Positions 4,214 to 58,648 of a stretch of 64,000 nucleotides of DNA are shown here, piece after piece. The stretch lies in assembly GCF_008107625.1 (NCBI RefSeq), contig NZ_SDKK01000013.1, positions 62,001 through 126,000 of the forward strand, given 5' to 3'. The position numbers and the translations under genes are program-made. Each line of letters begins with the position of its first letter. The stretch's first letter is position 1. Below the pieces are notes generated by a model. That model saw only the letters and a list, made by a program, of their open reading frames with translations, made no database searches and was not told the DNA's origin. The DNA is from Zoogloea oleivorans (GTDB taxonomy: Bacteria > Pseudomonadota > Gammaproteobacteria > Burkholderiales > Rhodocyclaceae).

Positions 4214-4244
4214 TGACTTGACTCGTAGGGTGGGACTAATCTAT

Positions 4245-34090: not shown

Positions 34091-34105
34091 GCACCGAAGC
34101 CCGCC

Positions 34106-34612: not shown

Positions 34613-34653
34613 ATACCCTGAAAAGCATACTCCCCGCTCGGAGTCTGATTTCA

Positions 34654-35552: not shown

Positions 35553-35772
35553 ACTGCATGTGTGGCTCCTTGCGTAGTGAAGGCAAACGGCAGCCTTCTC
35601 AGCAAGGGATTCAATGAGCCACAGGATTTCTTTATGGCCTCTTCATTCCAGTCCGCGAATTTTAAGCTGGACCCAGGTTGTCCATGTCCCTAGTTATGAG
35701 TGTTTCGGGCTGTCCAATACAGTGGCATCATGTAGGCTTCGAAAAGCTTAAAGAACATGGGAGCGAACTATC

Positions 35773-36225: not shown

Positions 36226-36238
36226 CCCCCGAGCCGGC

Positions 36239-36706: not shown

Positions 36707-36740
36707 ATAGAAGGGGCCGAAAGTCTCAATAGGATCATAT

Positions 36741-37418: not shown

Positions 37419-37648
37419 TTTGAGGTGGGAAGCCAGACAGGAGTTGAATACAAATCGCTAGCAATCAACCTGACCACAATTATCTCATACAAGATCACTC
37501 AATCGTTGCGGTCCGTGATGCGGCTTAATCCATTCAGGTCAGTGCGCGTTCTGATAAAGGCTGTCGCCCCGTTAAATATCCATTCGGAATTCAGAATGAC
37601 TGAGTTTAATTGATGCACGGGCAGTAATAATTTTTGCTAGGAGGCGCT

Positions 37649-38299: not shown

Positions 38300-38305
38300 T
38301 TTTAA

Positions 38306-38592
38306 TCAAGGGCGCCCTCCCTCATTGATGGTGGCGAACGGCTGGAAGCAACCGGACGATTCTGTGAAATACGTTTCCTGCTTGATGACCCAACGGTTTT
38401 CCCATTTGGGCGGTACAGCCGACACCTTGGCACCCTCTTGCCCAATCACAAGAAAACATTCTCCATCCCACAGCCCGACATTTCCATTCGTGCCGCACCC
38501 GACATACCAGTGCCCAGTCTGAGCTGCTTCATTGGGATTTGCTGAACGTCCGTCATCGCCTACCCCTTTAGGCTTTCTTTGGCGTCAGCCAT
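38306..38592 (-). pseudogene. Small gene with a one-base frameshift in a G-run
   Basis: The ATG at 38592 gives MADAKESLKG and then a stop. If one G were added to the GGGG run, the frame continues VGDDGRSANPNEAAQTGHWY, then VGCGTNGNVGLWDGECFLVI, KWENRWVIKQETYF and ends at 38306, a 94-95 residue protein. The second frame is open throughout and protein-like (many W, C, G). It starts 2 nt after the stop of the broken metallo-beta-lactamase-fold gene, so they once formed a unit. Function unknown. Confidence 0.55.
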
Positions 38593-38702
38593 ATTCACGC
38601 CTCCCACCATTCGCCGTCATGGCGATAAACCACGTTGCGGAACAATTCGCTGTACTTGTCCGTGGCGAAGCTGTGGGTAGGGATTATTAATGCACGAGGA
38701 GC

Positions 38703-38711
38703 CAAGCCTTC
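38703..38711. repeat. Target-site duplication, left copy
   Basis: CAAGCCTTC directly before the left IS end. The identical 9 bp follows the right end at 40112-40120. A 9-bp duplication fits IS256-family transposition (8-9 bp). Confidence 0.85.
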
Positions 38712-38768
38712 GGAGCCTGTCCGTATTTTTGTGTTTGAGGCCTACCATGCTCCCCGAAAGGAACATGT

Positions 38769-40034
38769 ATGACCTCGAAGAAACAGAAGGTAGTGAAACC
38801 GGTGGTCGCAGCCTTGCCCGCGGCCGCGTCGGAATGGCTGGACCAGATCGTCACCGGCCCGATGACCGCAGAGTCCGTCGAAGAGGTGATGCGCGGCTTC
38901 AAGAAAGCACTGATCGAACGGGCCTTGGGCGCCGAGCTGAGCCACCACCTGGGCTACCCGGCAGGCGGTGCCAAACCGGATGCCACTGCCAATCAACGTA
39001 ACGGCAGCAGCGGCAAGACCGTTCTGACCGATGACGGGCCGCTGCGCATCGACATTCCCCGTGACCGGGCCGGCCTGTTCGAGCCGCAACTGATCGGCAA
39101 GCACGAACGTCGCTTCAGCGGCTTCGACGACAAGATCATCGCCATGTACGCCCGCGGGATGAGTGTGCGCGAGATCCAGGGCTTTCTGGTGCAGATGTAC
39201 AACACCGAGGTGTCGCCGGACTTCATCAGCAGCGTCACCGACGCCGTGATGGAAGAGGTTCTGCAGTGGCAGGGCCGCCCCCTCGAAGCGATGTACCCGG
39301 TGGTGTTCTTCGACGCCCTGCGGGTCAAGATCCGGGAAGACGCGGTGGTGCGCAACAAGGCGGTGTTCCTGGCCCTGGGGGTGCGCGCCGACGGCAGCCG
39401 TGACATTCTGGGCTTGTGGATCGAGAACACCGAAGGGGCCAAGTTCTGGCTCAAGGTCTTCAATGACCTGAAGGTGCGCGGCTGCCACGATATCCTGATT
39501 GCCGTTACCGACGGGCTCAAGGGCATGAGCGAGGCGCTGGAGGCGGTGTATCCCCAAAGTACCCTGCAGACCTGCATCGTGCATCTGCTGCGCAATAGCC
39601 TGAGTTACGCGGGCTACAAGGACCGACAGGGTCTGGCCCACGCGCTCAAGCCGATCTACCAGGCGGTGAGCGCCGAGGCGGCAGAGGCGGCCCTGGAGGC
39701 GTTTGCAGAAGGAGAATGGGGACAGCGTTTCCCGACCATCGCGGTGGCCTGGCAGCGGGTGTGGGAGCAGGTGATCCCGTTCTTTGCCTTCCCGCCGGAT
39801 GTGCGCCGGGTGATCTACACGACCAACGCCATCGAGAGCGTCAATGCCCGGGTGCGCAAGATCATCAAGACGCGGGGGCACTTCCCGACGGACGAGGCGG
39901 CCACCAAGCTGATCTGGCTGGCGCTACGCAACATCACAGCCGAGTGGAAGAGGCCGATGACGTATTGGAAGAGCGCGATGAATCAGTTCGCCATTCTGTA
40001 CACGGATCGCTTCATTCCGGCGATGGCGCGATGA
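38769..40034 (+). CDS. IS256-family transposase (Mutator-like DDE)
   Basis: A 421-residue transposase, the full family length. DDE-domain landmarks are VVFFDALRVKIRED (first Asp), AVTDGLKGMSEALEAVYP (second Asp) and YTTNAIESVNARVRKIIKTR (Glu), with the zinc-like pattern CIVHLLRNSL between. The N-terminal part (SEWLDQIVTGPMTAESVEEV; LGYPAGG; FEPQLIGKHERRFSGFDDKI) is also standard. No frameshift or stop interrupts it, so the element may be active. Confidence 0.95.
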   Translation: MTSKKQKVVKPVVAALPAAASEWLDQIVTGPMTAESVEEVMRGFKKALIERALGAELSHHLGYPAGGAKPDATANQRNGSSGKTVLTDDGPLRIDIPRDRAGLFEPQLIGKHERRFSGFDDKIIAMYARGMSVREIQGFLVQMYNTEVSPDFISSVTDAVMEEVLQWQGRPLEAMYPVVFFDALRVKIREDAVVRNKAVFLALGVRADGSRDILGLWIENTEGAKFWLKVFNDLKVRGCHDILIAVTDGLKGMSEALEAVYPQSTLQTCIVHLLRNSLSYAGYKDRQGLAHALKPIYQAVSAEAAEAALEAFAEGEWGQRFPTIAVAWQRVWEQVIPFFAFPPDVRRVIYTTNAIESVNARVRKIIKTRGHFPTDEAATKLIWLALRNITAEWKRPMTYWKSAMNQFAILYTDRFIPAMAR

Positions 40035-43725: not shown

Positions 43726-44376
43726 ATGAAAGCTTCCGACGTCATCGAGTTCCTGCAGGCAAACCCCGAATTCTTCGACAAGAACTCGACCCTGCTGACC
43801 GACCTGACGGTGACCCACCCCAACAACGGACAGGCCATCTCCCTCACCGAGCGCCAGCTGATCGCCCTGCGCGACCGCATCGCCCAGCTTGAGGACAAGT
43901 TCGCCGAGCTGCTGGCCTTTGGCGAAGAGAACGACGGCATCAGTGAAAAGGTGCATCGCCTGGGCCTGTCCCTGCTGGAAGCGGAAGACTTCGAATCGAT
44001 CCGCCAGGCCATCTACGTGCACCTGCAGGAAGATTTCTCGGTGCCCCACGTCGCCTTCCGGGTGTGGAACAGCGTGCTGTCGCGCAGCGGGCCGGAGTTT
44101 CTGGCGGTTGGCGAGGAAGTGCGCTTTTTCACCGGCGATTTGAACCAGCCTTATTGCGGCGCGCCCACCCTGCGCGAAATCGGCAACTGGTTCGGCCCCG
44201 CCGGCAAGCTGATCCGCTCGGTGTCGCTGGTGCCCCTGCGCCGCGACGAGCAGACCTTCGGGCTGCTGGCCCTGGGCAGCGAAGATCCGGAACGCTTTTA
44301 TCCCGAGATGGGCACGCTGTACGTGACGCGCATCGGCGAGATGGTGTCCTGCGCCCTCCGCCGCCAACTCGGCTAG
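43726..44376 (+). CDS. DUF484-family protein
   Basis: A 216-residue protein of the DUF484 family, which has a GAF-like fold. KASDVIEFLQANPEFFDKNS is the conserved N-terminus, and LVPLRRDEQTFGLLALGSED, then RFYPEMGTLYVTRIGEMV the C-terminal GAF part. A coiled coil (LTERQLIALRDRIAQLEDKF) lies between. The ATG at 43726 gives the conserved start, 34 nt after dapF. In many proteobacteria xerC follows; here the next gene is rlmI after a repeat pair. Function unknown. Confidence 0.9.
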   Translation: MKASDVIEFLQANPEFFDKNSTLLTDLTVTHPNNGQAISLTERQLIALRDRIAQLEDKFAELLAFGEENDGISEKVHRLGLSLLEAEDFESIRQAIYVHLQEDFSVPHVAFRVWNSVLSRSGPEFLAVGEEVRFFTGDLNQPYCGAPTLREIGNWFGPAGKLIRSVSLVPLRRDEQTFGLLALGSEDPERFYPEMGTLYVTRIGEMVSCALRRQLG

Positions 44377-44391
44377 ACAGGGAGCCTAGCC

Positions 44392-44458
44392 TGTGGGTCG
44401 GACTTCAGTCCGACTCGACTGGCTAACCCCGTGCTGTCGGACTGAAGTCCGACCCACA
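44392..44458. repeat. Inverted pair of the 18-bp dispersed palindrome
   Basis: CTGTGGGTCGGACTTCAGTC... (core 44397-44414) faces TGTCGGACTGAAGTCCGACC... (core 44436-44453), each with a GTGG/CCAC tail pointing outward. This is the best-preserved pair, between DUF484 and rlmI, exactly where xerC would be expected. Confidence 0.92.
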
Positions 44459-44518
44459 GTTCGTGCCCCTTCGGCGCGTCCTCATTTTCTTTTTTACACC
44501 TGATTTTTCGCTCCCACC

Positions 44519-45706
44519 ATGGCTGAACTCATTCTCAAATCCGGCAATGACCGGTCCGTGCTTCGTCGTCACCCCTGGATCTTCGCCGGCTCGGTAGACC
44601 GGCTGGAAGGGCGGGCGCGGCCGGGCGACACGGTGCTTGTGCAGGATTCGCGCGGCAAGCCGCTGGCGCGGGCAGCGTGGTCGCCGGAGTCGCAGATCCG
44701 GGCGCGGGTGTGGAGTTTCGATCCCGACCAATCAATTGATCACGCCTTCATCAAGCGGGCGGTGGCCACTTCCGTGGCGCGGCGGGCGGCCCATCCGTGG
44801 CTGGCCGGGCAGGAAGGCGTACGCCTGATCCACGGCGAATCCGATGGCCTGCCGGGCGTCATTGCCGACCGTTACGGCGCCGTGGTGGTGGTCCAGCTGA
44901 CCAGCGCAGGCGCCGACAAGTGGCGCGATGCCATCGTTGCCGGGCTGGTCCAGGCCACCGGCTGCAGCGCGGTGTATGAACGTTCGGACTCCGATGTGCG
45001 CAAGCTCGAAGGCCTCGGCCCGGTCACCGGCCTGGCTTACGGCGAACTGCCGGAAGGCGGCCTGACCATCGTCGAGAACGGCGTGCGCATGGAAGTGGAC
45101 GTGGTCGGCGGCCACAAGACCGGCTTCTACCTCGACCAGCGCGAGAACCGCCACCTCACCGGCCAGTTGGCAGCCGGGCGCGACGTGCTCAACTGCTTCT
45201 GCTACACCGGCGGCTTCTCGCTGCAGGCACTGGCTGGCGGTGCCAGGAGCGTGATCTCCATCGACTCGTCCGGCCCGGCGTTGGCCGCGGCAGCGCGCAA
45301 CCTGGCCCTCAACCCGCAACTCGACGCCAGCCGCGCCGAATGGCGTGAAGACGACGTCTTCCAGGCCCTGCGCAGCCTCAAGGCCGAAGGCCGCAAGTTC
45401 GACATGATCATCCTCGATCCGCCCAAGTTCGCCCCCTCGGCCGCCCACGCCGAACGCGCAGCGCGCGCCTACAAGGACATCAACCTGCTCGGCCTGCGCC
45501 TGCTCAACCCGGGCGGCATCCTGATGACCTATTCCTGCTCGGGCGGCATCGGGCTGGAAATGTTCCAGAAGATCGTCGCCAGTGCCGCCTCGGACGTGGG
45601 TGTCGAGGCGCGTATCATTCACCGCTTGTCTGCCGCGCCCGACCACCCGATCGGGCTGGCCGTACCGGAAGGCGAGTACCTCAAGGGGCTGGCCTGCCAG
45701 GTCTGA
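44519..45706 (+). CDS. rlmI: 23S rRNA (cytosine1962-C5)-methyltransferase RlmI
   Basis: A 395-residue class I SAM methyltransferase. An N-terminal PUA domain (LILKSGNDRSVLRRHPWIFA; SRGKPLARAAWSPESQIRAR) is followed by the RlmI-type linker (HKTGFYLDQRENRHL) and the catalytic domain with NCFCYTGGFSLQALAGGA (SAM motif I) and ILDPPKFAPSAAHAERAARA; YSCSGGIG carries the catalytic-region Cys. Length and order match RlmI/YccW. It starts 60 nt after the repeat pair. Confidence 0.92.
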   Translation: MAELILKSGNDRSVLRRHPWIFAGSVDRLEGRARPGDTVLVQDSRGKPLARAAWSPESQIRARVWSFDPDQSIDHAFIKRAVATSVARRAAHPWLAGQEGVRLIHGESDGLPGVIADRYGAVVVVQLTSAGADKWRDAIVAGLVQATGCSAVYERSDSDVRKLEGLGPVTGLAYGELPEGGLTIVENGVRMEVDVVGGHKTGFYLDQRENRHLTGQLAAGRDVLNCFCYTGGFSLQALAGGARSVISIDSSGPALAAAARNLALNPQLDASRAEWREDDVFQALRSLKAEGRKFDMIILDPPKFAPSAAHAERAARAYKDINLLGLRLLNPGGILMTYSCSGGIGLEMFQKIVASAASDVGVEARIIHRLSAAPDHPIGLAVPEGEYLKGLACQV

Positions 45707-45826
45707 GCTGCGGCCAGGGGGCGTTGTTTTACAGAATGTAACGAAGGAAGGGGGACGTCTTCCGGCTGGTATACTGGTGAAATTGTGTAAAACTAGCCAT
45801 TCTGGATACTGCCTGCGGAGAAACAG

Positions 45827-46353
45827 ATGCACAGCCCCCTGCCCCCTGACTCATCCGGGTCAGCACCTGCCGGCCACGCCGCCGGGGACACCGGGGACGA
45901 AGCGCGACGCGACCAGCGCGTCGTTGCCCTGCTCCTGGCCCGTTACAACCTGCGTTACCTGGTCCGCCTCTACGCCGCCTTTGAGGGTGACCTGCTGCTG
46001 CCCATCGTGCTTGGCGAGGTCGGCCTCTACAACCTCGGCGGCCTCGGCCTCGACAACCAGGCCTTGGCGGCCATTCGGTGCGCCAACGAGGGCAATTTCA
46101 ACAAGCTGGCCCTGCGTCCCTGCAATGCCTTCTCGATCAGCTCATCCACCGGTATTCCGCGGGAAACCGTGCGCCGCAAGGTCAGCCATCTGATCCAGCT
46201 CGGCTGGATCGCCCGCGACCAGAAAGGCGGCCTGACGATCACCTCGCAGGCCGTCAACCGGTGCCTGCAGCCTTTCGACCAGGACAACCTGGCCGACTTC
46301 ATGGCCACCGCAGAACGGGTCCGGACGGTGACAGCCCAGGACCCGGAGGCCGG

Positions 46354-46357
<4 letters not shown>
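45827..46357 (+). CDS. Winged-helix DNA-binding protein
   Basis: A 176-residue protein. The first ~25 residues are flexible ([13 protein letters not shown]). A C-terminal winged helix is visible: [20 protein letters not shown] followed by [20 protein letters not shown] (about residues 103-145). The middle is hydrophobic and helical. TATACT at 45770 could be a -10 box, without a good -35. It converges with ruvB, the two stops overlapping by 4 nt. Regulon unknown. Confidence 0.72.
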
Positions 46358-47399
<1,042 letters not shown>

Positions 47400-47403
<4 letters not shown>

Positions 47404-48470
47404 GCCTGGGCTTCTTCTTCGGAATTGTCGGCAACGGTCACGGACTTGCTGGCCGTCCATGCCAGGAACAGGGCCTGGCCGAGGGCCAGGAAAGTGGGGC
47501 CGAGGAACAGCCCGATGAAACCGAACGCCAGCACGCCGCCAAAAGCCCCCAGCGCGATGAGCAGGATCGGCAAACTGGCGGTGCGGCTGATCAGCATCGG
47601 CTTGACGAAGTTGTCCACCGAACTGATCGCCAGCAGGCCCCACAGCACCATGAAGATCGCCCAGCCCTGCTGGTCCTGCTGATACAGCCAGAAGGCCGCG
47701 CCGCCCCAGATCAGCGGCGGCCCGATGGGCACCATCGACAAAAAGAAGATCCCCGCAGCCATCAGCAGCGCGCCGGGCACCCCGGCGATCAGGAAGCCCA
47801 CCAGCGCCACCAGCGCCTGGGCTGCAGCGGTGCCGACGATGCCGATCATCACCGCCTTGACGGTGTTGCTGGCCAGCTCCAGCAGGCTGCCACCCAGTTC
47901 GCCAGCAAGGCGATCGGCGGCGGTTTCAAGCAGTTCGGAAATGCGCGCCCCGTCCCGGTACAGAAAGAAAACGATGAACAGAACCAGGGTGATCTGCAGC
48001 AGGCCCTGGCCAACCAGCGCCCCCAGCCCGAGGGCAAACTTGCGCGCCGGCTCGACCGCCTGCAGGCCCAGCTTGCGCATCTCCAGCTGGCTGTGGGTGA
48101 GCTTGCGGATGTAGGCATCCACGTCGGCGCCGACAAGCGGAATCTCCTTCAGCCAGGCGGGCGGACGACCATCCGAAGCCTCGATCAGGGCCCGCACCTG
48201 CTCCACCAGTTCCGTCACCGCGTCGGTGAGGGAGGCAGCCAGGCCAACCATCGGCACCAGCAGCAGCGCGGTCAGGAGCAGCGTCATGGTGATCGCCGCC
48301 AGCCCGTCACGCCCGCGCAGGCGCCGGTGCAGGAAACGATAAAGCGGCCAGCTGGTGATGCACACCGTGCCGGCAAAGAGGATGGCGGCAAAGAAGGGGC
48401 TGAGCACGAAGGCGCAGCCAAGAAGCAGGAGGGCCGTGATGGCCACCTGGGCAGTGCGTCGGGGAGCCAT
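47400..48470 (-). CDS. AI-2E-family transporter (PerM-like permease)
   Basis: A 356-residue inner-membrane protein of the AI-2 exporter superfamily. About eight membrane segments are visible ([60 protein letters not shown]), with a large loop around residues 95-150. [20 protein letters not shown] near the end is typical. The start ATG at 48470 follows GGCTCCCC on the sense strand. It overlaps ruvB by ATGA. The transported compound is unknown. The 188 nt between it and the divergent gene at 48659 show no clear promoter. Confidence 0.85.
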
Positions 48471-48658
48471 GAGGATGCCTCGCGTAGGGGTGGCGGGATT
48501 ATCGCTGAATCGGCGGACACCGCGCACCGGATTGCGCCGTCAGGCCGGCACCGATCAACTTCTTCATGAACATGCTCTAGAATTAATCCTGGCAAGCCGC
48601 TCCTCCAGACCCGCCCCAGCCCCGGCCCTCGCGATGAACCAGACCTTGATGGTGAAGT

Positions 48659-49099
48659 ATGACGACAAGGAAGCAACCCATGCCCTCTACGGACCGGACG
48701 GATGCACTGGCGTCACCGGCAGCGGCGCACGGATCAGCGCGTATCTGTTCGCCGCTGCCGCTCCACCTGGAGAACGGCTGCCTGGTCGTCCCGCCGTTCC
48801 GGCTCGCCCACCTGCACCAGCACTACACGCAGGAGACCGAATTGCGGATCCAGCTGAGCCGGATCGTGCCGGACCTCTACCGGGTTGTGGCGGTCCATAA
48901 TTTCTGGGCAGAGGACACCAATCCCGACTTGAGCCAGTGCATCGCGGCAATTTTTCTCGGCCGGCGGCGCCTTGATGGCACCTGGGAGACGGCAGAAAAC
49001 TGGCCCCTCGAGTGCCGCGAAGTTGCACGGCTGGCCTACCTCGAGATCGACGACGGAGCCACCACCGCCCGCCTCTTTCCCCATGATCACGAATACTGA
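48659..49099 (+). CDS. Hypothetical protein upstream of a glycosyltransferase
   Basis: A 146-residue protein without recognisable domain; an alternative start at 48680 (MPSTDRTD) gives 139 residues. The middle is hydrophilic with many His (FRLAHLHQHYTQETELRIQL), then AAIFLGRRRLDGTWETAENW and LECREVARLAYLEIDDG. It overlaps the glycosyltransferase start by 17 nt, so the two are coupled and may work together on the same glycan. Confidence 0.6.
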   Translation: MTTRKQPMPSTDRTDALASPAAAHGSARICSPLPLHLENGCLVVPPFRLAHLHQHYTQETELRIQLSRIVPDLYRVVAVHNFWAEDTNPDLSQCIAAIFLGRRRLDGTWETAENWPLECREVARLAYLEIDDGATTARLFPHDHEY

Positions 49100-50159
49100 G
49101 CGACGCGCCTTCCCGGTCATCGAGATCACCAACGAGATGCCCCTCAACCGGATGGGCGGCGTCGGCACCGTGATCGAGAACCTGATCAGCGGCTTCGCGG
49201 CAGAAGGCGTCGACGCGCTGTGGTTCGTCATTGACCACGCTTATCCGCCGGCCGAGGTGGACGAAATCCTGCGCCGCTTTCATCCGGTGGTGGTCGGCAG
49301 CGCGGAAGAGCTGCGCCACTTCACGGCACCGCTGCTGCACGTGCACACCTACAAACCCAACCCGGCGCTGGATGCCGTGCTGGCCCGCCACCGCGTGGTA
49401 TGCACGATTCATTCACTGCTGGCCCTCGAGGAGCGCACCAACGGCGTCGGCCTCGGCGGTGCACGGGCCTGGCAGGAACACCTGATCTCTCTCAGCGCGC
49501 GGGTCGTCGTACTCTCCGAGGCCGAACACCGGCATTACCGGGCGCTGGGCTACCGACAACGTAATCCGGCGGTAAAGGTCATCCCCAACGGCGTGGCTTG
49601 CGCGGCCCCCTTCCGCCCGGTGCGGGGCAAGGCAGTGCTCGGCTATTGCGGCCGGCTCGTACCGCGCAAGCACCCGGAATACGTGCAGTTACTGCTCGGA
49701 GAGGCGCATTTCGCGACGCGCCGGGTGCTCGTCGCCGGGCGCGGTTTCAGCCCCTATGCCCGCAACCTGCTGCACGCGCACGGGCTCGCCGAGCGGGTCA
49801 GTTTTCTCGGCTGGTGTGCCGGCGCACGGCTGGAAGCCTTCTTCGAGGCCATCGATGTGCTGGCGGTACCGTCGAGCTACGAGCCCTTCGGCCTGGTCGC
49901 GCTGGAAGCCGCCGCCCGCGGTATCCCCGTGGTGTGCACACGCACCGACGGCCTCCACGAAGTCCTCGGCCCCCATGCGTTCTACTGTGCCGACGGCACC
50001 TACGACGCCTTCCGTGCAGCCATGCACGACTGGGACGACGCCAGCCCTGACGAACTGCGCGCCCGTTGCGTGGCGGCCCGGCAGCGCTACGAGGCGCATT
50101 TCACCGACCGCGTGATGGCGCGCCGCTACCGGCACCTGTTCGCCGAACTCGCCGGCTAA
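49083..50159 (+). CDS. GT4-family glycosyltransferase
   Basis: A 358-residue GT-B glycosyltransferase. The N-terminal acceptor half has ITNEMPLNRMGGVGTVIENL (the glycine-rich start seen in GT4 synthases). The C-terminal donor half has KVIPNGVACAAPF, LGYCGRLVPRKHPEYVQLL and the GT4 signature VPSSYEPFGLVALEAAARGI with the EX7E-type glutamates. It is soluble or membrane-associated in the cytoplasm. It overlaps the hypothetical gene upstream. Donor and acceptor are unknown; an isolated position argues against a large polysaccharide locus. Confidence 0.88.
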   Translation: MITNTERRAFPVIEITNEMPLNRMGGVGTVIENLISGFAAEGVDALWFVIDHAYPPAEVDEILRRFHPVVVGSAEELRHFTAPLLHVHTYKPNPALDAVLARHRVVCTIHSLLALEERTNGVGLGGARAWQEHLISLSARVVVLSEAEHRHYRALGYRQRNPAVKVIPNGVACAAPFRPVRGKAVLGYCGRLVPRKHPEYVQLLLGEAHFATRRVLVAGRGFSPYARNLLHAHGLAERVSFLGWCAGARLEAFFEAIDVLAVPSSYEPFGLVALEAAARGIPVVCTRTDGLHEVLGPHAFYCADGTYDAFRAAMHDWDDASPDELRARCVAARQRYEAHFTDRVMARRYRHLFAELAG

Positions 50160-50160
50160 G

Positions 50161-50499
50161 TTAGGAATGGAACAGCTGGTCAGTCTTGGCCGCCATGATG
50201 AAGTCGTTCTCGTGGAGTCCCTTTATCTTCTTGGTTTGCCAGGAGATCTTGGCCCAGCCCCATCCAAAACTGATGTCGGGGTGGTGGCCCTGCATTTCAG
50301 CCAGATTGCCGACGCTTGCAACAAAGTCCATGGCTTCCTTGAAATTCCTGAAAGTGAAGTTTCTCTCAATACGGAGCCCCTCATCCACAAGCTCCCAGCC
50401 CGACACCCTTTGCAGATAGCCGTCGGCCTCGGCCTTCGTCAGGGGAGGTATCCCGCCGCGGCATGGCTCACATGTCCCGGACAAAAAGTCATCGCTCAT
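50161..50499 (-). CDS. phhB: 4a-hydroxytetrahydrobiopterin dehydratase
   Basis: A 112-residue pterin-4a-carbinolamine dehydratase that regenerates the pterin cofactor of aromatic amino-acid hydroxylases. The family core is RNFKEAMDFVASVGNLAEMQ followed by GHHPDISFGWG with the catalytic His residues. An N-terminal CEPCRGG motif is common in bacterial members. The ATG at 50499 is favoured; the frame runs 21 codons further upstream. No phenylalanine hydroxylase gene is in the window, so it may serve a distant one or another pterin enzyme. It is less GC-rich than its neighbours. Confidence 0.92.
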   Translation of the reverse strand: MSDDFLSGTCEPCRGGIPPLTKAEADGYLQRVSGWELVDEGLRIERNFTFRNFKEAMDFVASVGNLAEMQGHHPDISFGWGWAKISWQTKKIKGLHENDFIMAAKTDQLFHS

Positions 50500-50635
50500 T
50501 TTGCGTACTCCCGAAAAACCAGCGCGCTTCCCCTGGAACAGGGGTATGGACGCCTGTTTCATGAGAACCCAAGCTTTCGCGAGAGTTCATCACCAAACCT
50601 TTTGCCCCACCGCCTGTCTCAATTGAGGCGCATGG

Positions 50636-50959
50636 ATGACGGACTTCAAGGACTGCCGCTTGAATCGCGCCCCGGAGCGTCGATGGATCATGAAAAGAGC
50701 CCCAAAACTGTCTGACTATGTGGAAATCGCTGCTGCGGAGTACATCCGGGAGACCGGACGTAGCGAACTCGATTCACGCTGGATCGCCGAATTCTTTCAG
50801 GACAGTGGGGTACTGGAGGCCTATCCGCGCCAGGACCTGGTCGCTTTCTGGATCCAGGTGCAGAAAGCCGTGACGAAATACGCCGACCGGGCAGACAAGC
50901 AGGCACGCCAGCATGTGGACAGGATGACCCGGCTCGAAGGAAGGCTGCGCAAAGGCTAA
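50636..50959 (+). CDS. Small hypothetical protein
   Basis: A 107-residue basic helical protein (MTDFKDCRLNRAPERRW...). GAGG sits 7 nt before the ATG at 50636; a second start at 50690 (MKRAPKLSDYVEIAAAEYIR) would give 89 residues and begins with the more ordered part. RQHVDRMTRLEGRLRKG at the end is positively charged, so nucleic-acid binding is possible. No family recognised. It lies between the pterin dehydratase and the TIR-FGE gene, convergent with the latter. Confidence 0.55.
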   Translation: MTDFKDCRLNRAPERRWIMKRAPKLSDYVEIAAAEYIRETGRSELDSRWIAEFFQDSGVLEAYPRQDLVAFWIQVQKAVTKYADRADKQARQHVDRMTRLEGRLRKG

Positions 50960-50997
50960 GGCCGCTTGCGCGCGAGGCCGGATAGGTGATTGCCGGC

Positions 50998-52263
50998 TCA
51001 AGAGGGGTCAGGCTCAGTTGCCGGCAGCTCGTCGAGCAACACCCGGAAACCGAAATCCCGCACGCAGTCCGAGGGCGAGCAGTAGCCCCGGTTGGAGATC
51101 CGGACCTCGATGGGAATCGAATCCCACGAACCGCCGCGCACTACCCTCTTGTGCAGCACATCCACCTGGACGTCGGGATCCATCGTCGGCTCACGGGGCG
51201 GGCGCGCCGCATACACACCGGCGTCGTACCAGTCGGAAACCCATTCCCAGACATTGCCGACGACATCAAACAGATTGAAGTCGTTGGGGGCAAAGGATCC
51301 CACCGGCGAGGTGCCCTGCCAGCGGGTGTTGTCAGCGTAGTTGGCGCAATCCGGCGTGATCTCGTTGCCCCACGGATAGCAGGTGTCGGCACGGCCGCCC
51401 CGCGCGGCGTACTCCCACTGGGCCTCGCTGGGCAGGCGCCCGCCGACCCAGGCGCAGTATTCACGCGCGTCGGCCCAGGTAACGTTCACCACCGGATGAT
51501 CGTGATCCGCCCAGTTGGGGTTGTGCTTGGGCGGCGGCGGCATGGCGATCCCGCGGCTGCGCACGAAGCGGCCATAAGCCCCCGCCGTCACCGGCCCGCG
51601 GGACAGCCAGAACCCCTGGGTCAGCTGCACCGGATGGCGGGGCTTCTCGTCGTCGTAACGCTCGTCGGTCACCCCATCCCCCGGCACCCGACCCATCATG
51701 AATCCCCCCGGCGGAATCCACGCATACTCCAGCTGGTCGACGGGGTGGACGCGCACGCAGCCGGCCTTCAGGCTGGCCATGCTGGCGGCAAGGCTGCGCC
51801 GCGCATCCGAGGCCTGCCGGATACCCTGCACCAGTGCATCCACGTCGCGGGTGAAGGTGTAATGGTGCAACACGCGGGCCTGCAGGGACGACAGCCGGAC
51901 CAGATCCGGCGGCAGTGCCTCGCCTGGTGGCATCACGGCCTCATCCACCAGCAGCGGAATGACACGCACGTTACGCGTCAGGGCCGCACCGATCTCGATG
52001 CGCACCCAGTCATTCGGCTGGTCCAGGCGGCGGCGCCCGTACTGGTCGGCAGTCTTCAACCAGCGTGACCCGATCATCACCAGGCACACGTCACAGGCAC
52101 GCAGGGTGCTCTCGATTTCGCGGGCAAAATCGTCGCCCGAACAAAGGCGCTCCACGTCGATGAAGATCTTGTCGCCGGGGAAGGCTGCACACAGGCGATC
52201 GTAGAGCCGCCCCGCAAAGCCCGCACTGTCGTCCCGCCGGTAGCTGATGAAGATACCTGCCAT
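50998..52263 (-). CDS. TIR-domain protein fused to an FGE/SUMF1-type C-type lectin-fold domain
   Basis: A 421-residue fusion. Residues 1-135 are a TIR domain: AGIFISYRRDDSAGFAGRLY, IFIDVERLCSGDDFAREIES and NDWVRIEIGAAL with the conserved Glu90 that catalyses NAD+ cleavage in active TIRs. Residues about 170-412 are an FGE-sulfatase domain: GGFMMGRVPGDG, HPVQLTQGFWLSRGPVTAG, GGRLPSEAQWEYAARGG, NLFDVVGNVWEWVSDWY and RVVRGGSWDSIPIEVRISNR, ending FGFRV. The paired Cys that true formylglycine-generating enzymes carry just after GGSW is missing, so this domain is probably a binding module. TIR-FGE proteins occur in signalling/defence and as diversity-generating retroelement targets; no reverse transcriptase is nearby. 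Confidence 0.87.
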   Translation of the reverse strand: MAGIFISYRRDDSAGFAGRLYDRLCAAFPGDKIFIDVERLCSGDDFAREIESTLRACDVCLVMIGSRWLKTADQYGRRRLDQPNDWVRIEIGAALTRNVRVIPLLVDEAVMPPGEALPPDLVRLSSLQARVLHHYTFTRDVDALVQGIRQASDARRSLAASMASLKAGCVRVHPVDQLEYAWIPPGGFMMGRVPGDGVTDERYDDEKPRHPVQLTQGFWLSRGPVTAGAYGRFVRSRGIAMPPPPKHNPNWADHDHPVVNVTWADAREYCAWVGGRLPSEAQWEYAARGGRADTCYPWGNEITPDCANYADNTRWQGTSPVGSFAPNDFNLFDVVGNVWEWVSDWYDAGVYAARPPREPTMDPDVQVDVLHKRVVRGGSWDSIPIEVRISNRGYCSPSDCVRDFGFRVLLDELPATEPDPS

Positions 52264-52380
52264 GACTCGACTCCTGAATCCGGGCTGTGGCCTGCGAAGG
52301 GGGCCCGCCCACGGCCCCGCACGCTCTCGCTTTCATCCAGGGATAGGCCACGATCACGGCCAGGGCAAGCGCGGCGGTGA

Positions 52381-52872
52381 TCAGGCGGCCGGCTTCAGCC
52401 TCACGTAGATGGTCTTCTCCACCGTCGCCACCACCTCGCCCTGGTGGTTCATTACATCCACGCTGAAGGTCGGTTCGTATTTGCCGCCGCCGGCGGTGGC
52501 CTGGCGGATTTCCTCGACCTGCTCGGGGGTGATGCGGAAGGTGGCGCGCACCGTGCCGCGGCCGGGCAGTTTGTAGTCGATGCTGGAGGACTTGTCCCAC
52601 ACCACGTACTTGCGTCCCAGCCGGTTCATGACCAGCAGCGCAAAGAAGGGATCGGTCATCGCATACAGCGAGCCGCCGAAGTGGGTGCCCATGTAGTTGC
52701 GGTTGAGCAGGCCCATGCGCATGCGCACCACGGCTTCGAGGTAGTCGGGGGCGATGCGTTCGACGTGGATGCCGGCGCCGATGAAGGGCGGCCACAGATT
52801 CATCAGCAGGCGCAGGCTGCCGGCGCCGAGCTTCACGTTGCGCATGAAGCCCTGCTTGAGCTTCTGGCTCAT
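52381..52872 (-). CDS. DUF4442-family hotdog-fold protein (thioesterase-like)
   Basis: A 163-residue hotdog-fold protein. [40 protein letters not shown] and the end [17 protein letters not shown] match DUF4442, a relative of acyl-CoA thioesterases. The central helix [12 protein letters not shown] carries the usual active-site region. The start overlaps the ruvA stop by ATGA, so it is translated after ruvA. Substrate unknown. Confidence 0.85.
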
Positions 52873-53459
52873 GCCTTGGACAAGCCCTTGAGCGCCTGGC
52901 GGATGCCGTCGGAAACACCAACGCCTTCAGGCAGCAGCTTGACCGCGCCGAGGGCTTCCTTCTCGTTGTAGCCGAGGGCCAGCAGCGCGTTGGTGATGTC
53001 GGAGCGGTCGTTCCCTGCCAGGTCGGCGGTGACCCGGCCGGACGCCGCCGGCAGGGCCTTGGCGAGCTTGTCGCGCAGTTCCAGCAGCAGGCGTTCGGCG
53101 GTCTTCTTGCCGATGCCGGGAATTTTCACCAGCCGGCCGGACTCCTGCAGGGCGATGGCCTGGGCCAGGTCATTCACCGACAAGCCCGACAGCACGGCCA
53201 GCGCGGTGCGGGCGCCGATGCCGGCCACCTTGAGGAGCTGACGGAAGGCGGCCCGCTCGTCTTCCGACGCAAAACCGTACAGGAAGTGACCGTCCTCGCG
53301 CACCGCCAGGTGGGTACTCAGGGTGACGGACTGGCCGGTGGCGGGCAGGCCGTAGAAGGTACTCATGGGGACTTCCAGCTCGTAGCCGATGCCATTCACG
53401 TCCACGAGGATCTGCGGGGGATTCTTTTCAGCCAGGCGGCCGGTAATGCGTCCGATCAT
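52869..53459 (-). CDS. ruvA: Holliday junction DNA-binding protein RuvA
   Basis: A 196-residue RuvA, the tetrameric junction-binding partner of RuvB. The OB domain starts [20 protein letters not shown] and LTHxx-type loop region [15 protein letters not shown]; two helix-hairpin-helix motifs follow ([40 protein letters not shown]). The C-terminal RuvB-binding domain is [16 protein letters not shown]. It is 16 nt downstream of the glutathione transferase gene, not of ruvC, and ruvB is 5.5 kb away. Confidence 0.96.
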
Positions 53460-53475
53460 GCGTTCTTTCAGGAAG

Positions 53476-54087
53476 TCAGGAGTAGTGCGCGGCCGAGAAG
53501 GCCGGCAGGGCCTCGGCCGCTGCGGAGAGTGCAGCAAGGCCGGGATAATCGCTGTCGGCCACCAGGCCCGGAGCGATGAAATGGGTGAAGCGCCAGGCCA
53601 CCGCAACGGTGATGTCGGCCTGGGTCGGGTAGTCGCCGCACAGCCAGTCGCTCGTCCCGACGTGCGCTTCGAGGAGGCCGTAGGTGTCGCGGATCTGGCC
53701 GTCCACGCGTTCGAGCCAGTCGGGATCGCGACATTCCTTCGGGCGTACCTTGGTCTCATACACACGATGAACACTTTTCTCGGCGGCGGCGAGGCCCAGG
53801 CTGGTGAGCTGCAGGCAGCGCCGGTAGCGCCCCGGGTCCAACGGCCACAAGCTCTTGCCCGGCGCAGCGCTGTGCTCCAGCCAGGCAATGATCTGGGAAC
53901 TGTCCACCATCACCTCGCCATCGTCGAAGACGAGGGTCGGGGCCTTGACCAGCGGATTGATGGCGTGGAATTCGGCAAAGTTGCGGAAGACCGACAGGGA
54001 CTGGTGCTCGAAGGGGATGCCCAGCATCCGCGCAGTGATGAAGGTGCGACGTACGAAGGGGGAATCCAGCATGCCGACAAGTTTCAC
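53476..54087 (-). CDS. Glutathione S-transferase family protein
   Basis: A 203-residue GST. The thioredoxin-like N-terminus is [20 protein letters not shown] with Ser9 as the probable glutathione-activating residue, followed by [20 protein letters not shown] (cis-Pro and the DSS gamma-Glu site). The all-helical C-terminal domain has [18 protein letters not shown]. The start is GTG at 54087, with AGGAGG 6 nt upstream; the longer ATG start lacks support. It overlaps the secreted protein gene by 4 nt. Likely detoxification; substrate unknown. Confidence 0.88.
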
Positions 54088-54398
54088 GGGGAGCCTCCTG
54101 AGACAGGTTTTGCACAATTGGCGGCGGTCCGGCGCAGGCGGGCAAGCACGGCGTCGGCCTCGTCACGACTCTTTACCGGGATACGCGCTTCATAGCCGCT
54201 GCCCAGATTGCCGCCACCGTAGTAAATCCGGACTTCGTCGGCGCGGACCTCCACATATTGCACGATGCCAAGGTTGATGGCGCGCTGGCTGCCGCTCTCG
54301 GCGGGCAGGAAAAACAGGCAAAAGCCGCTGGAACCGGCGTCCTGGGCCAACGCCGGCCAGGCGGAAAACAGCGCGGCAAGAAGCAGCACGATGCGCAT
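54084..54398 (-). CDS. Small secreted hypothetical protein
   Basis: A 104-residue protein with a signal peptide (MRIVLLLAALFSAWPALA, cleavage before QDAG). The mature part (SGFCLFFLPAESGSQRAINL; GIVQYVEVRADEVRIYYGGG) has two Cys (FCLFF and ANCAKP) that may form a disulfide. The ATG at 54398 shares one base with the HAD stop, and the stop overlaps the GST start by 4 nt. No family recognised. Confidence 0.7.
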   Translation of the reverse strand: MRIVLLLAALFSAWPALAQDAGSSGFCLFFLPAESGSQRAINLGIVQYVEVRADEVRIYYGGGNLGSGYEARIPVKSRDEADAVLARLRRTAANCAKPVSGGSP

Positions 54399-55084
54399 CA
54401 GGCAAGCCTCATGGAAAGGAAGCGGGCGATGTCGTGCAGGCTGGTGGCCTGCGGCACGCCGGCCGCCCGCACGTCGTCGGCGGGCTGCAGCAGGTCGGGC
54501 ACCATGATCACCCGGGCGCCGGCCGCCAGGGCGCCGCGCACCCCGGCGTTCGAATCTTCGAGCACCAGACAATTCGCCACCGGCACGCCGAGGCGCTCGG
54601 CGGCAGCCAGGAAGATGTCCGGCGCCGGCTTGCCGCAGGCCACTTCGTCGCCGCACACCATGCCGTGCACGCGCGCCAGCAGGCCTACCGCCGCCAGCTT
54701 GGGCTCGGCCCGCGAGCGCCGCGTGGAGGTGGCGACGACGCGTCCGAGGGCCATGCCGTCGAGCACGTCGAACAGTTCGGTGACGCCGCCCTTCAGCGGA
54801 ATGCGCCCTTCGGCAATGGCCAGTTCATAGAGGCGGCCAAAAGCTTCGTAGAGTTCGGCGGTGGGGTAATCGTCGCCCAGGTGACGGCGGATCACCGCCG
54901 GGCCGTCCTTCGAGTTCAGGCCGACCAGCGCCAGCCCCACTTCGTAGCGCCACGGCACGCCCAGTTCGGCCGCCGCCAGTGCGACGGTGGCGAGGGCGAC
55001 CCGCTCGCTGTCGAGGAGCAGGCCGTCCATGTCGAAGATGACCGCATGAACATCATGCGGGGCAAAGGGCGGGACGAAACTCAT
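54398..55084 (-). CDS. HAD-superfamily phosphatase (beta-phosphoglucomutase-like)
   Basis: A 228-residue HAD hydrolase of subfamily IA. VIFDMDGLLLDSE carries the nucleophile Asp and the acid/base Asp, VVATSTRRSRAEP the motif-II Thr, ACGKPAPDIFLAAAERLGV the motif-III Lys and CLVLEDSNAGVRGALAAGA the motif-IV acid. The alpha-helical cap fits beta-PGM or phosphoglycolate-phosphatase-like enzymes. It overlaps the UbiA gene by 4 nt. Substrate unknown. Confidence 0.9.
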   Translation of the reverse strand: MSFVPPFAPHDVHAVIFDMDGLLLDSERVALATVALAAAELGVPWRYEVGLALVGLNSKDGPAVIRRHLGDDYPTAELYEAFGRLYELAIAEGRIPLKGGVTELFDVLDGMALGRVVATSTRRSRAEPKLAAVGLLARVHGMVCGDEVACGKPAPDIFLAAAERLGVPVANCLVLEDSNAGVRGALAAGARVIMVPDLLQPADDVRAAGVPQATSLHDIARFLSMRLA

Positions 55085-56049
55085 GACAGGGCTCCCGGCC
55101 AGCGTCCGAAGGCCAGGGTAGCGGCGAGGACGAGACCGTGCAGGTGGGCGGCAGCGACGGTCAGCTTGAGGGCCGGCGCCAGCTCGGACGGCTCGCTGGC
55201 GTGGGCCATCAGGTAACGGGCGGCGCGAAAGGAGAGGATCAGGGTCAGCGCGGCAGCGGCGGCCCCCTGCGGCAACCGGTCGCGCCCGACCATCAGCACC
55301 AGCCATCCGTAAGCCAGCAGCACCAGGCCCAGGTAGGCCCACTTGGCGTTCTCCGGGCCAAGGCGTACCACCAGCGTGCGCTTGCCGGCCGCCTCGTCAC
55401 CGCGCCGGTCGGGGAATTCGTTGATGAACAGGATGGCCGCCACCAGCAGTGCATAGGACAGACCAGCGATCAGCGGCAGCGCCGAAAAACCACCACGCTG
55501 CACGAAGTCGGTGCCGATCACCACGATCAGCCAGCCGGCGGCCACCGCCGCCTCGCCCAGCCCGCGCGACACCAGGGCCAGCGGCGGCGCGGTGTAAGCC
55601 CAGCCGAGAAAGAGCCCGGCCAGACCAATGAGGATCAGCCCGGGCGCCGACTGCACGGCAAGCCACAGGCCGGCCGGCACCACCAACGCCAGCAAGCCGT
55701 AGCCCAGGCGGCCGGTCTCGGCCTCGGAGAGCACCCCGTTCTGGATGAAGCGGCTGCCGCCGGTGAAGGGAAAGAGCCGCTCGGTATTGGCCGCGTCGGC
55801 GCCGCTCTGCGCATCGTAATAGTCGTTGAGCACGTTGATGCCAGCATGGGCGACGAGGGCGAAGAAGATCGTCAGCCCGGCTTTCAGGCCGTCGATGGGC
55901 AGGCCGCTGCCATGCGCCACCGCCAGCCCGATCAGGCAGGCGCAGAGGGTCACACCCAGGAAGGCCGGGCGGGTCGCCAGCAGGCCGGCGAGCAGTGGAC
56001 GGGCGCGCAGGGCGATGGCAGGTTCGGCAGGAGGCGCAGTGGCAGGCAT
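55081..56049 (-). CDS. UbiA-family prenyltransferase (MenA-like)
   Basis: A 322-residue inner-membrane prenyltransferase. The first Asp motif is NVLNDYYDAQSGADAAN, the second FINEFPDRRGDEAAGKRTL, both needed to bind prenyl diphosphate through Mg2+. About eight or nine membrane segments are visible. Sequence flavour (FTGGSRFIQNGVLSEAET; LGWAYTAPPLALVSRGLGE) is that of 1,4-dihydroxy-2-naphthoate prenyltransferase MenA. No other menaquinone gene is nearby, so a related aromatic acceptor is possible. It heads a coupled chain: UbiA, HAD, secreted protein, GST, ruvA, DUF4442. Confidence 0.88.
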   Translation of the reverse strand: MPATAPPAEPAIALRARPLLAGLLATRPAFLGVTLCACLIGLAVAHGSGLPIDGLKAGLTIFFALVAHAGINVLNDYYDAQSGADAANTERLFPFTGGSRFIQNGVLSEAETGRLGYGLLALVVPAGLWLAVQSAPGLILIGLAGLFLGWAYTAPPLALVSRGLGEAAVAAGWLIVVIGTDFVQRGGFSALPLIAGLSYALLVAAILFINEFPDRRGDEAAGKRTLVVRLGPENAKWAYLGLVLLAYGWLVLMVGRDRLPQGAAAAALTLILSFRAARYLMAHASEPSELAPALKLTVAAAHLHGLVLAATLAFGRWPGALS

Positions 56050-56215
56050 CGGTACGGCGCAGAGTCAGGACATGCAATGCTGCGGCGGGGCGGCGCCCCG
56101 GTCAAGCTGCCGTGGCGTGAATGCACGCCCGCCAGTCCGGCGGCGGCCCGCGCGACAAGGGCCGGCCTGATCGGTTAGCATCGACAGCCGTTCATCCAGC
56201 CGGCGCCTGACGACA

Positions 56216-58648
56216 TTGAACACCACCGCCTCCTCTTCCCACCCGCCTGCCGTTCGCCCCCGGCGGCCCATCGCTCCCCGCCTGTATGGCACGCTGGCGG
56301 CGCTGGGCGCCCTCGCAGGCCTGGCCATCTGGCTGTGGATGTATCCCCTCGACAAGGGCGTGGCCGGTGCCCTGCTGGCGGCCTACGTGGTGCTGGTGCT
56401 CATGCGCCCGGGCAGTTGGCTGGTGGTCCTGCCGACCCTGTGGCCGGTCATCGAGCTGGCGCCGTGGACCGGGCAGATTTACTTCACCGAAAGCGACGCG
56501 CTGGCGCTGGCCACCCTCCTCGCCCTCGGACTGCGCGAAGCCATCGCACCACCAGCGCCAACACTCAGTGGACGTGCACCGGTCAAGCTCAACGTGGCGG
56601 CGCTGACCCTTTTCGGGTTGCTCGCCGGCAGCGTGCTGGCCTCCGGCCTGCGCGGCCTGCTGCCAATGCCGGCGCTGGAGCCGGACGTCCTGATCAACTA
56701 CAGCTCGACCCTCAACGCCCTGCGCGTCGGCAAGGGCTTCGTGCTGGCCTTTGCGCTGATTCCCTTTCTGCACCTGGCGATCCGCCGTGACGGCGACGCG
56801 GCCCTCGGCCGCTTCACCACCGGCCTCACCCTCGGCCTCACCTCCTGCGCGCTGGCCGCCCTGTGGGAGCGGCTGGCCTTTCCCGGCTTTACCAACTTTG
56901 CCAGCGACTACCGCAGCACGGCCCTGTTCTGGGAAATGCACGTCGGCGGCGCCACGCTCGATGCGTGGCTGATGCTCAGCTTTCCCTTCGCCCTGGCCAG
57001 CCTGCTGGGCGCCCGCAGCCCACTGGCGCGCGGCCTGGCCCTGGTGGCAGTCGGGCTGGGCGGCTATGCGATCTTCACTACCTTCTCGCGGATCGTTTTC
57101 GGGGCGGTACTGGTGGTGATTGGCGTACTCGGCGGTGTGGCCCTGCTGCGCCCGGCCACGCCACATCGGGTGGAAACCCCGCGCGGCCACCCTCGCGTCC
57201 TGCTGGCCCTGGGCGGGGCCGTACTGGCGGGTTGCTTCCTGGCTTTCGGAGGCGGCGGCTATCGCGGCATGCTGGCCTTTGCCGGCCTGGCCCTGCTCGC
57301 CTACCAGGCGGGTGGCCTGCTGGCCGGCGCCCGGGTCGGGCAACTCCTGGCCGGCGCCCTGGCCGGCCTGATCCTGCTGCTGGCCAGCCTCCTTGCCACC
57401 GCCTGGGTACCCAAGGGGGCCTACCTGATTTATGCGCTGTCCTGGTCGGCCACCGCCCTTTTACTGTGGCAGGCGGAGCGCAGCGGCAGCAAGCCGGCGC
57501 TCGCCCTGCTGACCGCCCTGCTGGTGTGGACCGGCGCCAATGCGGTGGAAGTCGGCGTTTTCTGGGGTGAAGCGGCGGCACTGCCGGGCGCCGCCCTGGC
57601 CGTTTGTCTGGTACTACTTGCCGTGGCCGTGCAGGCCATTCGCAGCACGCCCCTGTGGACGCCAAGATCGCAGGACGTCTTCACCGTCGGCGCCCTGCTG
57701 GGCGTCAGCGGCATGGTGGTTGCCACCCTTGGCAGCGCCTATATGGGTAGCCGCCTGTCCACCACCAGCGGCGACCTCGGCAGCCGCCTCACTCACTATA
57801 GAGAGAGCGCCAGCCTGGTGCGCAGCCCCACCGACACCCTCCTCGGCATCGGCCTCGGACGCTTTCCGGATGCCTTTTTCTGGCAGCCGCCGGCCGACGG
57901 TTTTCCGGGCAGCGTGCGCCTGCGTCAAAGCCCCGAGGGGCATTACCTGCAGATAGGCGGCTCACGCTTCGTGCGTGGTTACGGGGAGATGCTGCGCGTC
58001 GGCCAGCGCGTGCCGGTGGATACCGCCACCCCCTTCCATTACCGGCTGCGGGCCCGCAGCGACAAAGACGTGGCGCTGCTGCTGTTCATCTGCCGGAAAC
58101 ACCTGCTCTACGCCGATGGCTGCGCCAGTCAGGCCGTCAAGCTGAAGGGGGGTGCCGGCTGGGAGCAGTTCGAAGGTGTATCGACCGGCGGCGAACTGCC
58201 GGCCAGCGGCTGGCCGCCGCGGCTGGCCTTCTTCTCGATGAGTGTGGAAGCGCCCGTCGATGTGGATGTGGACAACGTCGAGCTGACCGATGCCACCGGG
58301 CGCCCGCTTCTGCGCAACGGCAACTTTGGCCGCGGGGAAGACTTCTGGTTCTTCACCTCGGACCGGGACCACTTGCCCTGGCACGCCAAGAACCTGTTCC
58401 TGCACGTGTACATCGAACAGGGCCTGCTGGGCCTCGGCGCTCTCGGACTGGCCCTCGTCGTGGCGGCTGTGCGTCTGCTGAGAAGCCCGACCCGGCACCA
58501 CCCGCTGGCGCCCATCCTGCTGGCGGCGCTGGCCGCGGTGACCGTCGTCGGGTTGGTGGACAGCCTGCTCGACATGCCGCGGCTGACCGTTTTCATCTAC
58601 CTGCTGCTGTGGCTCGGGCTGACCCTGCGCAAACCGGCGCCAGCCTGA
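56216..58648 (+). CDS. O-antigen ligase-like membrane protein with an inserted beta-sandwich-like domain
   Basis: An 810-residue polytopic protein. About eleven to twelve hydrophobic segments (LYGTLAALGALAGLAIWLWM; LNVAALTLFGLLAGSVLASG; VLRPATP region onward) and, late, HAKNLFLHVYIEQGLLGLGA, the His-Asn...Glu-x-G-x-x-G signature of Wzy/WaaL ligases. TLLGIGLGRFPDAFF before it is the other Wzy_C landmark. Between them (about residues 565-715) sits an unusual extracytoplasmic domain with beta-rich, carbohydrate-binding-like sequence. The start is TTG at 56216: the frame is closed at 56170 and no ATG or GTG lies before the first membrane segment. It probably joins or polymerises glycans at the periplasmic face. 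Confidence 0.78.
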   Translation: MNTTASSSHPPAVRPRRPIAPRLYGTLAALGALAGLAIWLWMYPLDKGVAGALLAAYVVLVLMRPGSWLVVLPTLWPVIELAPWTGQIYFTESDALALATLLALGLREAIAPPAPTLSGRAPVKLNVAALTLFGLLAGSVLASGLRGLLPMPALEPDVLINYSSTLNALRVGKGFVLAFALIPFLHLAIRRDGDAALGRFTTGLTLGLTSCALAALWERLAFPGFTNFASDYRSTALFWEMHVGGATLDAWLMLSFPFALASLLGARSPLARGLALVAVGLGGYAIFTTFSRIVFGAVLVVIGVLGGVALLRPATPHRVETPRGHPRVLLALGGAVLAGCFLAFGGGGYRGMLAFAGLALLAYQAGGLLAGARVGQLLAGALAGLILLLASLLATAWVPKGAYLIYALSWSATALLLWQAERSGSKPALALLTALLVWTGANAVEVGVFWGEAAALPGAALAVCLVLLAVAVQAIRSTPLWTPRSQDVFTVGALLGVSGMVVATLGSAYMGSRLSTTSGDLGSRLTHYRESASLVRSPTDTLLGIGLGRFPDAFFWQPPADGFPGSVRLRQSPEGHYLQIGGSRFVRGYGEMLRVGQRVPVDTATPFHYRLRARSDKDVALLLFICRKHLLYADGCASQAVKLKGGAGWEQFEGVSTGGELPASGWPPRLAFFSMSVEAPVDVDVDNVELTDATGRPLLRNGNFGRGEDFWFFTSDRDHLPWHAKNLFLHVYIEQGLLGLGALGLALVVAAVRLLRSPTRHHPLAPILLAALAAVTVVGLVDSLLDMPRLTVFIYLLLWLGLTLRKPAPA

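Follow-up and report, generated by a model that had tools for sequence, protein, structure and literature searches.

The gene at 50998–52263 (minus strand) of the window, by which we mean the whole 64,000-nucleotide stretch of DNA analysed here, is an open reading frame of 421 amino acids with an ATG start that fuses a TIR domain to a formylglycine-generating-enzyme-type (FGE) domain, and we give slightly better than an even chance to the reading that this TIR-FGE protein is a fixed-specificity sensor-effector carried in an exchangeable accessory cassette. The cassette is built from a small protein of 146 residues (u146), a GT4 glycosyltransferase, and a third component that is either TIR-FGE or a protein of 266 amino acids. 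The linkage of TIR-FGE to u146 and GT4 and the swap of the third component are new, and in the open-licence PMC papers covered we came across no account of a cassette that joins u146, GT4, and TIR-FGE. With this genetic context now added, the sensor-effector reading of the protein, which was drawn from its sequence, is a plausible one, and the cassette most probably serves in conflict (defence) with a fixed specificity.

The TIR_2 domain occupies residues 4–128 (51880–52254, minus strand; Pfam E 8e-15, 55.8 bits against a cut-off of 28), and the FGE-sulfatase domain, of C-type-lectin-like fold, occupies residues 182–409 (51037–51720, minus strand; PF03781, E 4.6e-56); Pfam recognizes these two domains only, with STAND, NACHT, and vWA/MoxR NTPases absent from the protein. 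Glu90, within the motif DWVRIEIGAAL, aligns with the glutamate of DWVHKEIVTAL in SARM1 TIR structures, which we take to be the catalytic residue, and a glutamate is also present at this position in the three orthologs that were aligned. The first-pass annotation had described a TIR domain that keeps its catalytic glutamate and an FGE-fold binding module that lacks the FGE cysteines, and had seen in the pair a possible sensor and effector; the reading frame, the two domains, Glu90, and the cysteine-free stretch described below show that it was right on the anatomy, the TIR claim being confirmed by both Pfam and the SARM1 alignment, and the sequence also supports the possibility of a sensor-effector. 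PADLOC matches to the protein span its TIR part only, and its AF2 model was unusable (pLDDT 37.2). In the mechanism that we propose, the lectin-fold FGE domain would bind an invader-derived or glycan-bearing ligand, ligand binding would bring the TIR domains together, and the TIR would then cleave NAD+ so that growth stops, following an abortive-infection logic, whereas GT4 with u146 might make, present, or modify the ligand, or might restrain the effector.

The gene partner of TIR-FGE, recognized by Pfam and by comparison of ortholog loci, is the GT4 gene (49083–50159, plus strand), which encodes 358 residues including an EX7E motif, EPFGLVALE; the u146 gene (48659–49099, plus strand), which has no Pfam match and was defined from the ortholog loci, overlaps its start. 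Both accompany TIR-FGE in six of six genomes, namely that of the window and those of five orthologs, and BLAST of the neighborhoods found GT4 (66–69% identical) and u146 (48–55%) at all five ortholog loci, with no other gene matched between the window and the ortholog flanks, which are short on one side at L042, L043, and L044. In each of the five orthologs GT4 and TIR-FGE converge, their 3′ ends overlapping by exactly 80 bp. In the window only, the two genes are separated by a pterin-4a-carbinolamine dehydratase-like gene (50161–50562, minus strand; Pfam) and by a 107-residue open reading frame from the ORF list (50636–50959, plus strand) that has no Pfam match and is present only in the window's insert; neither belongs to the five orthologous cassettes. 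The settings of the cassettes differ: one site is common to L042 and L045; L043 and L132 have flanking genes in common, with their arrangement inverted; a more distant stretch is common to L043 and L044; and none of this is found around the window's cassette. Rfam found no match in window positions 44000–58000, and promoter and terminator scans performed no better than on shuffled sequence.

Among 199 genomes of the family, u146 and the GT4 ortholog were found in the same five, and a full-length TIR-FGE match at about 70% identity or more was found in two (the source genome included), both of which are among those five. More distant TIR-FGE proteins occur in the family, for example at G140:C92 (41% identical), and since u146 is absent from the G140 genome, not every TIR-FGE has the GT4/u146 pair. 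Searches for u146 at order and phylum level (399 and 398 genomes), in which the first 10 candidates per genome were scored so that the counts are lower bounds, each returned, besides the source genome, at least one match, in G226, which was set aside as spurious because it lies antisense inside an MFS transporter gene. No u146 was found on the plasmids searched, and 215 plasmid records match TIR-FGE, none of them across more than 80% of it. As a separate observation, u146 was seen only beside a GT4 of the window's type.

The third component of the cassette is exchangeable. In five genomes (G067, G115, G150, G970, and G971) the u146-GT4 pair has the 266-residue protein directly downstream. The first three belong to one genus, have no TIR-FGE at the locus, and are exactly the genomes in which the 266-residue protein was found among the 199 of the family; in them it begins at the end of GT4. 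Within the window's own genus u146 is present in 3 of 23 genomes, those of the window, G970, and G971, and in the last two the order is u146, GT4, and then a 266-residue protein that is 68–69% identical to the others, the G970 cassette sitting away from the window's site, where that genome has another occupant. The 11 cassettes seen thus comprise six with TIR-FGE, five with the 266-residue protein, and none with neither. For the 266-residue protein itself, Nuc_deoxyrib_tr is a weak Pfam lead in all five members (best E 0.021; the first member scores 13.4 bits against a cut-off of 28.8), the only PDB profile match is a nucleoside deoxyribosyltransferase at E 1.7, and phmmer found no PDB match, so the sequence may indicate a weak resemblance to nucleoside deoxyribosyltransferases, as a lead and not as proof. 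The TIR fold is related to that of the deoxyribosyltransferases. PADLOC has no model that matches GT4, u146, or the 266-residue protein.

In the window the cassette forms an accessory insert of 3,872 bp (48509–52380) beside ruvA/ruvB. In the congener G956 (RuvB 99% and RuvA 100% identical) 58 bp stand in its place, with DUF4442 and an AI-2E permease gene 54 bp apart, and the flanks of the insert align between the two genomes at 92.6% and 90.5%. A survey of the genus, in which ruvB was found in 22 of 23 genomes and the region was taken from 20 of the 21 others (G962 was left out), gave 18 of 21 loci, own included, that span the site, 11 of them with gaps of at most 98 bp and 7 occupied. Five of the short-gap loci have DUF4442 beside the permease, and six have ruvA there and no convincing DUF4442, including G164, whose gap figure rests on a spurious match. 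The occupants are the u146-GT4-TIR-FGE cassette (G000, the window's genome), PDDEXK_4 with a partner (G970 and G133), the same two genes with an Xre antitoxin and a RES toxin (G957 and G961), and an acyltransferase-like gene (G959 and G968), labels that come from Pfam for the G957 proteins only, from similarity for the rest, and from reading by eye for the acyltransferase-like gene, which has no PDB match (L183). Three loci (G036, G971, and G958) fail to cover the site; in G036 the genes adjoining the permease are PDDEXK and the acyltransferase-like one. Given these varied occupants, the gap between DUF4442 and the permease (in congeners L168, L171, L175, L176, L177, and L183) is an accessory hotspot that takes up several conflict-type loads, though not exclusively. 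Constant linkage in several flanking settings, together with the absence of the insert from the near-identical G956, argues for our main reading of a sensor-effector in an exchangeable accessory cassette, whereas the acyltransferase-like cargo of the same site, as judged by eye, is not obviously defensive.

Two further observations concern this neighborhood. A protein of about 190–230 residues (L168, about 4051–4632, with relatives in L171, L173, L175, and L177) lies beside the PDDEXK_4-like gene at five of five loci in which that gene was seen and, in L168, the only one scanned, has no Pfam match; the two possibly form a two-gene nuclease system. Elsewhere in the window, positions 34001–40000 have a G+C content of 51–59%, against about 63–70% in the rest, and may be a foreign segment.

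The best Pfam model for GT4 is Glycos_transf_1 (77.8 bits), and the GT4-conflict model PF20706 also matches, at 39.4 bits against a cut-off of 26. Among NCBIfam models the leading ones are GT4s of metabolism or exopolysaccharide synthesis, none of which reaches its cut-off, and these, with the acyltransferase-like gene at the same site in two congeners, would suit a reading in which u146-GT4 is a surface or small-molecule glycosylation unit and TIR-FGE is its regulator or an unrelated hitch-hiker. We consider this unlikely, because no gene for sugar biosynthesis or transport is conserved with the trio (in flanks that are short on one side at L042, L043, and L044) and because a weak relative of nucleoside deoxyribosyltransferases can take the partner's place. 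Rather improbable, too, is a toxin-antitoxin-like arrangement, in which GT4/u146 would restrain a constitutively toxic effector, be it TIR-FGE or the 266-residue protein. Co-occurrence of the genes, the exchange of effectors on a constant u146-GT4 core, the convergent overlap of the genes, and the RES toxin-antitoxin pair at the same site in two congeners are all in keeping with it, but the FGE module suggests the sensing of a ligand, and we know of no glycosyltransferase that acts as the antitoxin of a TIR protein.

A more specific version of the sensor-effector reading would have GT4 glycosylate an invader component, perhaps one held by u146, with the FGE domain reading the sugar and firing the NADase. 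What u146 might contribute to such a scheme comes from its AF2 model, built from five sequences, which is all-beta with a pLDDT of 64.6. VIA-align placed 13 rows at Z 8.7–6.0 before a drop to 3.0, most of these values being in the range that the program calls middling, and all 13 are phage proteins (tail, baseplate, or receptor-binding) or TssK; they include the phi812 baseplate, the fiber of cyanophage A-1(L), the receptor-binding protein of lactococcal phage 1358, TssK, Bordetella Mtd, the HFTV1 baseplate, and SPP1 gp22, which is named only as a gene product. Foldseek gave a best E of 0.23 in the PDB and of 0.007 in BFVD, where many of the named rows are phage tail or receptor-binding proteins. 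Foldseek is weak by itself; the consistency of the VIA-align list is notable, and with low-to-moderate confidence the u146 model resembles phage tail and baseplate domains, a likeness that at this pLDDT we treat as a lead only; its resemblance to receptor-binding and baseplate domains, Mtd among them, is perhaps a basis for a role in holding the invader component. We hold the scheme as a whole to be a long shot. A link in which GT4 marks with a sugar what FGE then reads cannot hold for all cassettes, since Pfam finds no lectin domain in those with the 266-residue protein. If the scheme were true, the window's cassette would be the fixed-specificity counterpart of TIR-FGE sensors that are diversified by a diversity-generating retroelement (DGR) in the same bacterial family, and in the 266-residue version that u146-GT4 core would drive another enzyme.

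It is very improbable that the FGE domain has the activity of a formylglycine-generating enzyme or of an EgtB/PvdO-like oxidase, with the TIR as a regulator. The strong PF03781 match and the PDB matches to FGE enzymes and PvdO fit such an enzyme, but the stretch that aligns to the active-site cysteine stretch of solved FGE enzymes, GGSWDSIPIEVR, contains no cysteine (on our assumption as to which FGE-enzyme cysteines are catalytic), which also confirms the earlier claim that the cysteine pair expected after GGSW is missing; moreover, the NCBIfam models for EgtB, SenA, PvdO, and OvoA all score far below cut-off, and none of the five neighboring genes scanned is a sulfatase. With the cysteine pair missing and the oxidase models below cut-off, we reject an active FGE. 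Downstream of this stretch the protein has the motif YCSPSDC (51064–51081, residues 395–400), in which Cys395 and Cys400 are five apart, presumably the spacing of the FGE cysteine pair, though displaced; the five orthologs have F and T/G/A at these positions and no cysteine there.

The first-pass annotation had also proposed that the C-terminal segment is of the hypervariable type diversified by DGRs. A true case of this kind exists in the same family: G140 carries, on contig 152 (L130, 317–13672), a DGR with one template, at 8549, an adjoining reverse transcriptase (motif LPIGNLTSQ), and four variable repeats that differ from the template at 15, 15, 16, and 18 of 26 A and at 0, 0, 1, and 0 of the 79 other bases. 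By Pfam its four targets are a TIR/SEFIR-nSTAND1-FGE, a TIR-NACHT-FGE, a DUF4062-FGE, and a TIR-FGE without an NTPase, while two more TIR-FGE genes of G140 (L135 and L136) are 18 and 23 of 79 non-A bases off the template. The window's segment (residues 373–407; 51043–51147, minus strand) has the same length and 35-residue frame as the template and the variable repeats of G140, among which one belongs to a TIR-FGE gene, and 10 of the 11 residues at template-Asn positions are reachable by mutation of AAY codons. However, 29 of the 79 non-A bases of that template are different in the segment. A codon derived from AAY has to have C or T in third place, yet of the 11 codons opposite template Asn only 7 do, where the share in the whole TIR-FGE gene is 56.8%. 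The suggestion that varied codons ending in C betray mutated AAC codons fails likewise, since 5 of the 11 end in C against 42.5% gene-wide, which is not above background. The frame itself, RGGSW..R..NR..P..GFR, is indeed present at 51043–51147, but it is not special to DGRs: among 28 distinct FGE segments, extracted by pattern from 27 of 80 loci compared, the strict 35-residue form fits 12 (four orthologs, the DGR-like L100, and seven others), and only one of the 28, L100, has a template-like copy inside its own locus, so the frame, being common among segments mostly without such a copy, is a signature of the fold. The L100 gene, an FGE gene of Anaerolineaceae at about 10480, differs from its template-like copy at 0 non-A and 16 A positions and is likely a DGR target.

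The machinery was not found in the source genome either (G000; 5.68 Mb, 107 contigs, 100% complete). Its sole RVT_1 match, at C23, is not a DGR reverse transcriptase but a group II intron maturase (NCBIfam TIGR04416, 332.7 bits where the cut-off is 300); whole-genome BLAST of 50998–51180 found no near-copy of the segment, the best non-self matches being of 18–23 bases at E 0.07; and a template scan of the local 16 kb found none, although the same scan recovers the template for the four repeats in L130. Reverse transcriptases in the ortholog genomes are absent or not of the DGR type: RVT_1 was not found in G199, G201, and G202 (completeness not given), G200 has two, neither of the DGR type by motif as read by eye, and that of G060 (L124, G060:C1, about 201890) is the antiviral Drt2 (582.6 bits against a cut-off of 390).

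None of the close strains fetched has a TIR-FGE gene at the window's site, and five full-length orthologs of other genera, 66–70% identical (L013/G060, L042, L043, L044, and L045), stand in for them in the comparison of the segment. Between the window and L013 the segment is 77% identical, with 6/4/14 differences at the three codon positions, and the rest of the FGE domain is 73% identical, with 36/31/79; pN and pS are 0.143 and 0.459 in the segment and 0.179 and 0.489 in the rest. The largest departure of the segment, from L043, is at 66% identity (9/6/19), where the rest of the FGE domain is at 71%. Variation across the orthologs is thus ordinary and third-position-dominated, and the segment, which evolves like the rest of the gene, is conserved and not a variable repeat. 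With no DGR reverse transcriptase, no template, ordinary variation among orthologs, and non-A differences from the G140 template, we reject a live or recently live variable repeat, the chance of which is close to negligible; the first three of these are what the first-pass annotation had itself named as evidence against its proposal, with orthologs standing in for close strains. Proteins of the sort that the earlier guess describes do exist, but the window's is not one of them.

We return to the fixed-specificity sensor-effector and its closest known relatives. According to PMC8195603, predicted conflict systems have FGS lectin domains, TIR, DRHyd, and GT4 among their parts, and the paper raises the possibility that GT4 gives lectin-like domains access to molecules of the invader. 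As described in the relevant passages of PMC8195603, PMC7159879, and PMC10907252, such systems resemble the window's cassette in having an FGE/FGS lectin fold as the proposed sensor and TIR effectors, with GT4, TIR, and DRHyd named as effectors. They differ in that the window's protein has no STAND/NACHT NTPase, EAD, or MoxR-vWA partner and no DGR, and those passages do not name a linked GT4-u146 pair. By Pfam, the five neighboring ORFs of TIR-FGE include no STAND, NACHT, or vWA/MoxR NTPase. The cassette links the gene for GT4 to that for a TIR-lectin protein in a set of three small proteins, and the genes scanned include no NTPase. Judged by sequence, the TIR appears to match SARM1 and bacterial TIR NADases, including the aligned glutamate, and differs from them in the FGE C-terminus. 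The likeness to Thoeris is a weak PADLOC match to ThsB, and a ThsA-type SIR2-SLOG or other Thoeris effector is absent by Pfam from the five neighboring ORFs scanned. To the formylglycine-generating enzyme/SUMF1 family (PF03781) the FGE domain belongs by sequence, yet it has no active-site cysteine pair and is fused to a TIR. The nearest relative in architecture is the DGR target at L130:4023–5729, in which TIR_2 is likewise followed by FGE with no NTPase and which shares with the window's protein the 35-residue C-terminal frame and the taxonomic family; unlike the window's protein, it has a template and reverse transcriptase on the same contig, variation at A sites only, and, from its longest start, about 140 more residues ahead of the TIR. 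Because the G140 DGR diversifies a TIR-FGE, the window's protein is a fixed cousin of the diversified kind, and the presence of both in one family makes it possible to ask what a protein of this architecture gains from hypermutation.
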